From: a virus
IMG/VR virus record: IMGVR_UViG_3300005337_000019
Span: 1 to 64,000 of that record
Reading direction: 5' to 3' (one strand)
DNA: 64,000 nt
Program-made: the position numbers and the translations under genes
The notes under the pieces: generated by a model
What the model was told of the DNA's origin: nothing
Database searches by the model: none
The model's input: only the letters and a program-made list of their open reading frames with translations
Part shown: positions 27,690 to 28,451 of the stretch, piece after piece
How positions within the stretch are numbered: the stretch's first letter is position 1
How the letters are laid out: the number at the start of each line of letters is the position of its first letter

Positions 27690-27717
27690 TTGACCGCCGT
27701 TCGTCATAGCGTATAAT
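27690..27717 (+). promoter_or_regulatory. promoter of the large RNA (class II with good -35)
   Basis: TTGACC (27690-27695), 16 bases containing TTCGTCATAGCG, then TATAAT (27712-27717). It is the best class II copy. The only following feature is the gene-free RNA region. Confidence 0.7.
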
Positions 27718-27723
27718 CGCCCT

Positions 27724-28400
27724 CGGGCCAATGAACACCGGAGGACGTGCAGAAAGCCGCGCGGACAGGACTGGACGCCTCACGCATGGCGTTATCGCAT
27801 CACCGTGACGGCGGCCCGACTCTTTGACATCTGAGGTCACCGGCGACGCGCCGTAGCCTCCACATGACGAGCATCACGTTGCGCAGGAACGCCGCCGTGA
27901 TGCTCGTCGGGGGCGCCATCCGCGGCGTCGGTTAAATGGTTCCGGACGGATGGGCATGCGGCATCCGGGATCGACGTATTCGGGGATCGCCAAGACGGTA
28001 AGGCACGAGATTTTGGCTCTCGCACGCGGAGGTTCGATTCCTCCTCCCCGAGCCAACCACAAAGCAAAGCTCCTGGGCGGTTTGCTGGTAGACGCGAGGG
28101 GATCAAAGCTCGGGACGGAGACCAGACGAGACTACGGCGGGTCCTTCGCAAGCGACCCGCGGGGCGGTGACGCAATCGCCGACATGCGCAGACCAGCGCA
28201 GCGTCGCGGGTTCCTCAGAGAACCCGAGAATGGTTCGGCCGGTGAAACGCCGGCGCTGCACCGACAGGTAACGGGGCATACCCCGAGAGAGGCCGCGAAT
28301 CACGTAACCGCCCGCGCGCGTCCGTGACCGTTCGGCCGTCGATTTGAACCCGCACGAGGGGCCGCCGGTGATTCGGCGGGACGTTCCGCTCGAGCGGGTT
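27724..28400 (+). ncRNA. large structured noncoding RNA candidate containing tRNA-Gln
   Basis: Between the genes ending at 27686 and starting at 28452 there is no coherent reading frame, but many stems. GACGAGCATCACG / CGTGATGCTCGTC (27866-27878 / 27896-27908) is 13 bp. Others: GCGGGTC / GACCCGC (28137-28160), GGCG / CGCC (28163-28180), CGGGTTC / GAACCCG (28207-28226), CGGGG-CATA-CCCCG (28272-28285), CCGCCG / CGGCGG (28362-28379) and CCGCTCGAGCGG (28386-28397). A canonical tRNA lies inside. Size, phage context and embedded tRNA recall GOLLD or ROOL RNAs; no sequence-level match was made. Confidence 0.5.
27980..28055 (+). tRNA. tRNA-Gln (UUG anticodon)
   Basis: Acceptor TCGGGGA pairs with TCCCCGA, discriminator G and encoded CCA at 28053-28055. 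D arm GCC...GGC with loop AAGACGGTAA; anticodon stem CGAGA/TCTCG with loop TTTTGGC (anticodon TTG); variable loop CACGC; T arm GGAGG-TTCGATT-CCTCC. All stems are intact, 76 bases. It is inside the large RNA candidate, so it may be processed from it. Confidence 0.95.
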
Positions 28401-28451
28401 GTAGCGCCGCAGCGCGGAAGGCGGCGCAAGTTTTTCGACAGGAGGGACGAC

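Follow-up and report, generated by a model that had tools for sequence, protein, structure and literature searches.

Two kinds of long phage-borne RNA have been associated with tRNAs. GOLLD RNAs are phage-borne, often over 800 nt long and in some cases hold phage tRNAs within the linker, and a carrier role has been proposed for them; ROOL is described as a long phage-borne RNA that often lies near tRNAs (PMC12286853). Could a tRNA gene set in a long gene-free stretch of another phage be organized in the same manner? We analyzed a window of 64,000 nucleotides, bases 1-64000 of the 82,990-base IMG/VR virus record IMGVR_UViG_3300005337_000019, in which such a stretch occurs. Like GOLLD, the predicted window RNA is phage-borne and would hold its tRNA on one inferred transcript, between a promoter and a likely terminator; unlike GOLLD, it yields no model match and has no recognizable conserved 3' half. 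Like ROOL, it would be a long phage RNA associated with a tRNA, but it does not match the ROOL model either and its tRNA lies inside the RNA, whereas ROOL tRNAs are described as lying nearby. With ordinary phage tRNA genes it shares a tRNA-Gln with a CCA end and a good cloverleaf score, but here a single tRNA sits in a unit of ~713 nt with its own promoter and likely terminator. Phage P1 likewise has several hundred nucleotides without a listed protein gene directly upstream of its tRNA genes; there, however, P1 carries the two-hairpin R1 element described below (56 bits), to which the window has no significant match. On present comparisons the window RNA appears to be laid out like GOLLD, without being a demonstrated member of that class.

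Genes were called with a codon-usage gene caller written for the analysis, which placed 107 genes in the record, mostly on the + strand. The largest of the 107 intergenic intervals is 27687-28451, at 765 nt, followed by intervals of 700 and 645 nt; 23 of the 107 exceed 150 nt. ORFs of more than 90 nt that overlap the interval all have negative coding scores, except in the frame of the downstream gene. The view taken in the initial annotation, that this is the longest non-coding stretch of the window, is thus borne out for the entire record. We found no relatives of the upstream 93-aa gene, and at E 0.01 neither Pfam nor PHROG offered a match for the downstream 216-aa protein.

The same annotation had placed the best class II promoter at the start of the stretch, and we agree: TTGACC-16-TATAAT is the top sigma-70-type site of the scan, in which the other nine rows (eight sites) reach 10/12, and 0.2 sites of its quality are expected per shuffled 3 kb. 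Its core, GTCATAG-GTA-AAT, occurs at four further + strand places in the record (1950, 67021, 72869 and 75527) and at several sites in a related phage, mostly as GTAGAAT instead of GTATAAT. Because the core recurs in both genomes, this second promoter class is likely to be real. A further promoter type, TTGACA-(A)TGCTnAnCGnTnAGCAT-TAnATT, stands shortly before ATG codons and has an inner palindrome, a putative site at which a repressor could bind.

At the other end of the stretch, a stem of GCGCCGC/GCGGCGC is followed by AAGTTTTT. The standard terminator scan, which takes loops of 3-8 nt only, does not list this site with its 10-nt loop, and among the other results of the scan that did find it the site is middling. 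As the standard scan would yield 2.0 terminator-like sites by chance in 3 kb, we consider this one a likely, though unproven, intrinsic terminator. With a promoter at the start and a candidate terminator at the end, the region would form one unit of ~713 nt with the tRNA inside, made up of a leader of ~257 nt, the 76-nt tRNA and a trailer of ~380 nt. These signals support the view that the tRNA is embedded in a separate transcription unit that codes for no protein, the transcript itself being our inference. The features are compiled in Table 1.

Table 1. Positions of features in the window and of R1-type elements in other loci. Positions are those of the window unless a locus is named.
Feature	Position	Strand	Basis
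TTGACA-(A)TGCTnAnCGnTnAGCAT-TAnATT sites	14864, 15215, 23289, 23832, 25913, 42987, 63611
Upstream gene, 93 aa	27405..27686	+	codon-usage call
Promoter TTGACC-16-TATAAT	27690..27717	+	11/12 consensus bases; start expected near 27723/27724
Predicted non-coding RNA, ~713 nt	27723..28435	+	promoter to likely terminator; no coding signal
5' domain, closing helix TCGGGCC/GGCCCGA	27723..27819	+	excised-domain fold, z -1.9
Possible long-range helix 27845-27860 / 28128-28143	27845..28143	+	88% complementary over 16 nt
Perfect 13-bp hairpin, 17-nt loop	27866..27908	+	z -5.1
tRNA-Gln, anticodon TTG, encoded CCA end	27980..28055	+	ARAGORN; RF00005 56.7 bits
7-bp hairpin	28137..28160	+	perfect-hairpin scan
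7-bp hairpin CGGGTTC-CTCAGA-GAACCCG	28207..28226	+	perfect-hairpin scan
6-bp hairpin inside AACCCGC...GCGGGTT	28362..28379	+	perfect-hairpin scan
Candidate intrinsic terminator: 7 G-C pairs, 10-nt loop, AAGTTTTT	28404..28435	+	stem -13.2 kcal/mol
Downstream gene, 216 aa, own AGGAGG at 28440	28452..29102	+	codon-usage call
Gene with Tad2-like (Thoeris anti-defence) domain	29113..30003	+	PF11195, E 3.6e-14
R1 element, phage P1	L253:1588-1628 = AF234173.1 68987-69027		model R1
R1-type elements	L059:2985-3025; L060:2500-2540; L254:1999-2040; many of L051-L179

The tRNA-Gln reported earlier within the region is genuine by two methods: ARAGORN and Rfam model RF00005 (cut-off 29 bits) agree on it, with a cloverleaf and the anticodon TTG. 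No exact 26-mer of it occurs in the viral contigs. The called genes hold 185 CAA and 622 CAG codons.

Does the remainder of the region resemble a described RNA? A comparison with GOLLD and ROOL had been suggested, together with a covariance search that would also cover group I introns and tmRNA. A cmscan search of the region with the complete Rfam set (4227 families, E up to 10) left the tRNA as the only credible match; six non-tRNA matches all fall far below their cut-offs, and neither group I intron, tmRNA, RNase P RNA nor any other Rfam model is credibly matched. The GOLLD model RF02032 found nothing in the region (E up to 10) or in the whole record, and neither did the ROOL model RF03087. 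It is the scan of the region that carries weight for the absence of both families, because the controls of the whole-record searches failed: with ROOL every control genome stayed silent, and with GOLLD 5 of 14 gave a signal, none over the cut-off. What stands of the comparison is the GOLLD-like layout with the tRNA inside; membership of either class does not. Among the papers listed, judged mainly by the opening lines of their abstracts, none appeared to describe the window RNA or the R1 element.

Searches by terminase, by capsid and by an alignment of two terminases returned one related phage and a distant terminase of 27% identity. The related phage, IMGVR_UViG_3300030511_000001 (81,633 bases; terminase 77%, capsid 71%), is the sole close relative found. 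It is collinear over most genes; the shared neighbors extend up to 27.4 kb and begin again near 32 kb. Genes 43-46, 48 and 49 (27405-30146 and 30490-31262) have no counterpart in it at E 1e-4, gene 47 has one elsewhere in its genome, and the tRNA-Gln is missing, the single tRNA found there being a tRNA-Tyr at another place. Because these counterparts and the tRNA-Gln are absent from a collinear relative, we regard the cassette as accessory. It holds, beside the window RNA, the Tad2-like gene, whose label as Thoeris anti-defence comes from the Pfam name of PF11195, and may therefore be an anti-defence island.

A blastn search of the region against the related phage gave nine matches, the best of 23 nt and over the promoter. 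Against 50,697 phage records, the best 20 of 48 matching records all match over the tRNA, as do the best 20 of 48 among plasmids. The two flanks alone matched 4 and 11 of the phage records over short stretches; the best of these matches, to Stenotrophomonas phage DLP_5 (28 nt, 96%), falls inside an opposite-strand gene. The phage, plasmid and viral-contig searches turned up no further copy of the window RNA.

Comparison with the related phage brought out two further sites in the window. A palindrome at 44198-44213, CGTTCCACGTGGAACA, is one mismatch away from the bacterial parS consensus, and an exact TGTTCCACGTGGAACA stands at the matching place in the related phage (L044:7334-7349) amid otherwise diverged surroundings. 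The leader of the minor tail protein gene (44540-44750) has a counterpart of 84% identity over 219 nt in the related phage, including a nearly identical block of ~100 nt, and 34 nt of it recur at 88% before another gene (G001:8725-8758); it may be late-promoter-like.

We favor, at an even chance, a self-contained non-coding phage gene: an accessory RNA of GOLLD-like layout from which host enzymes free the tRNA-Gln. RNA polymerase would begin at ~27723, at the strong phage promoter, and end at the likely terminator near 28435. Host RNase P and 3'-end nucleases would release tRNA-Gln(UUG) from leader and trailer, and the freed tRNA could decode CAA and CAG in infection or substitute for a host tRNA that is cleaved or lost, for instance to host defence. 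Leader and trailer, both with hairpins, might be a structured carrier or a by-product RNA, by analogy with GOLLD. A part for the unit in overcoming the host is plausible, because it belongs to an accessory cassette with a Tad2-like gene.

How much structure does the RNA have? The region holds seven non-overlapping perfect hairpins with stems of at least 6 bp, one of them of 13 bp. The 13-bp stem was reached in 0 of 300 shuffles, and across 232 overlapping windows of the genome no other place has a stem of this length. The number of hairpins is nearly ordinary: shuffles have 4.0 +- 1.7, and seven or more occur in 23 of 300 shuffles and 37 of 232 genome windows; its four stems of at least 7 bp are equalled in 8 of the 300 shuffles and in 13 of the 232 windows. 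Of the seven hairpins emphasized in the initial annotation, then, all are present and the 13-bp stem exceeds chance, but their count does not distinguish the region. The whole RNA folds with z -3.1 against 20 shuffles and z -2.0 against 100; 3 of 44 other windows fold as low (z -2.0), and the minus strand of the region reaches z -3.5. Seven 120-nt windows of the region average z -0.97, compared with -0.51 in 67 intergenic windows elsewhere and -0.17 in 737 windows of coding sequence. The 3' end (28345-28435) stands out at z -3.2, the trailer overall has z -1.2 and 28056-28143 has z -0.4; outside the 13-bp hairpin and the 3' end, the folding energy is unremarkable.

The closing helix of the 5' domain begins at the expected transcription start, seven bases from 27723 onward pairing with 27813-27819; in the minimum-energy fold of the full-length RNA the 5' end is paired differently and the TCGGGCC/GGCCCGA helix is lost. 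The possible long-range helix between 27845-27860 and 28128-28143 would enclose the tRNA (domain z -2.6). The structure signal overall is modest, and folding energy by itself is no proof of a large folded RNA. The earlier description of the region as a large structured RNA is thus partly supported: the 13-bp hairpin and the 3' end go beyond shuffles, but the whole-RNA z of about -2 and a hairpin number near background do not add to them, and the proposed fold comes from one sequence, no relative lending support to its relevance. Elsewhere in the window, 43681-44402 has the lowest + strand folding z of 44 sampled windows (-5.0, 20 shuffles).

These values also bear on a simpler account, in which only the tRNA gene matters: promoter and terminator would serve the tRNA-Gln, and the flanks would be idle spacer or decayed cassette DNA that is trimmed off. 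Energy and hairpin counts near background fit it, as does the cassette's absence from the related phage, and among the matches listed nothing beyond the tRNA convincingly resembles other sequences. Against it, the unit is nine times the length of a tRNA and its gap is the widest of the 107 intervals, and both the 13-bp hairpin and the 3' end show more structure than shuffled sequence. We hold this account to be possible, with distinctly less confidence than the self-contained gene. Improbable, in our estimation, is a bolder proposal, that with this RNA a so far unrecognized class comes into view for the first time, made up of long, folded, tRNA-holding phage RNAs unrelated to GOLLD in sequence; by analogy, such a class would work as GOLLD does, possibly as a tRNA carrier or cage in infection.

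Might the region instead be a long regulatory leader? Transcription would then continue across the 216-aa and Tad2-like genes under the control of the hairpins, with the tRNA as a passenger. The neighboring called genes do lie on the same strand, and from the U-run to the next start codon there are 16 nt. However, the likely terminator precedes the 216-aa gene, whose ATG follows a ribosome-binding site of its own, and among the 28 loci with relatives of this gene in viral contigs, the 11 in which it is called have an upstream gap of at most 17 nt in ten cases and of 237 nt in one. Compared with these 28 loci, the window RNA gave no more than three short, chance-like matches (E 0.64). We consider such a leader rather improbable.

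Two of these loci, L008 and L009, have ~700 nt without genes after a tRNA-Met (L008:1136-1843 and L009:1105-1819). Both flanks are 99.5-100% identical between the two, and the 5' half of the stretch, ~370 nt, is almost unrelated. The stretch contains tandem modules of the form TCACGCATGCG-insert-CGCAGTCGTGA, which are found in 11 viral-contig stretches, L008 and L009 included; one insert of L009 is tRNA-like by eye. A module TCACGCATG seemingly shared between these loci and the window RNA was rejected: the word occurs also at 50683 of the window phage, and its partner strand differs by eye.

A two-hairpin RNA element, termed R1 after its covariance model, emerged from the same loci. It consists of a core motif, GCCGGAGACGTAACCGGC, and a variable hairpin before it, with the form ACGG-variable stem-CG-CCGGAGACGTAACCGG. 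The motif is found in at least 120 viral-contig stretches, a few of which look like chance, and is altered at its 3' side in L008. The first helix covaries: four of four pairs show two-sided changes, and 96% of cells are paired (35 sequences). Its covariation score was reached in 0 of 500 shuffles; counting only how many pairs change on both sides, 26 of 500 did as well. The second helix is invariant because loci were picked by its motif. Model R1 scores at least 39 bits in 88 of the 100 loci given to it, which were mostly chosen by motif and in part used to build it; a second model, R2, was built from the alignment of the R1 search of these 100 loci. No Rfam family covers the element in 12 loci at gathering thresholds (three of them, L055, L059 and L060, hold it), in L009 at E up to 10, or in P1 at E up to 1.

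Phage P1, left out of model building, scores 56 bits; its second R1 hairpin ends 4 nt before tRNA-Asn, which is followed by tRNA-Thr. Model R1 also finds the element in Enterobacter phage Tyrion and Bordetella phages PHB04 and IFTN2; in P7, D6 and others it was seen by blastn only, alongside weak, chance-like matches in terminase genes. Among motif-bearing genome loci, 25 of 72 exceed 42 bits, including ones from Pseudomonas, Aeromonas, Herminiimonas, Bordetella and Herbaspirillum; the remaining 47 fall below that score and surely include chance matches. The class was seen in phage P1 and many proteobacterial phages, and prophages carry the element as well. In genomes at large it is rare: at E up to 0.05, one order (200 genomes, 11 with a match) and one family (148 genomes, 4 with a match) gave mostly weak matches, the center genomes being counted. 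In scanned loci, mostly motif-chosen so that the figure is no frequency, the element lies at most 75 nt upstream of 8 of 43 tRNAs, that of P1 tRNA-Asn among them. The gene-poor stretch of PHB04 that holds R1 also holds a permuted tmRNA with the tag ANDDYIRAAA (L059:1946-2317) and three tRNAs; none of these is among the listed features of the record.

That the window RNA is a very diverged member of this class, which can precede tRNAs, is highly improbable: the best in-region match (28233-28262; 9.1 bits, E 0.04 for 762 bases) and loops, UGAAACG and ACAGGUAA, that look alike by eye speak for it, but the site is absent among 31 R1 matches at E up to 10 in both phages, R2 gives it 12.5 bits at E 2.1 and rank 16, the hairpin spacing differs, and its similarity to 169 R1-type or L008-type stretches is within reach of 60 shuffles. 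With neither model search reaching genome-wide significance, we rejected the assignment. A relaxed two-hairpin descriptor found nothing in either phage, though its spacer limit of 6 would miss the 7-nt spacer seen by eye. The word ACAGGTAA-GGG, which occurs once in the window, twice in P1 and in none of the other scanned loci, was set aside as too short to weigh.

What would the window RNA mean for phage biology? Should the tRNA alone count, the region would be a common phage tRNA gene flanked by long spacers. If the flanks are functional, it would be a further independent case of a long phage RNA built around a tRNA, and such a case would help decide whether tRNA handling is the purpose of cages like GOLLD. 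With the R1 element lying upstream of the P1 tRNA genes, this question of long RNAs and tRNAs becomes directly testable in a laboratory phage.
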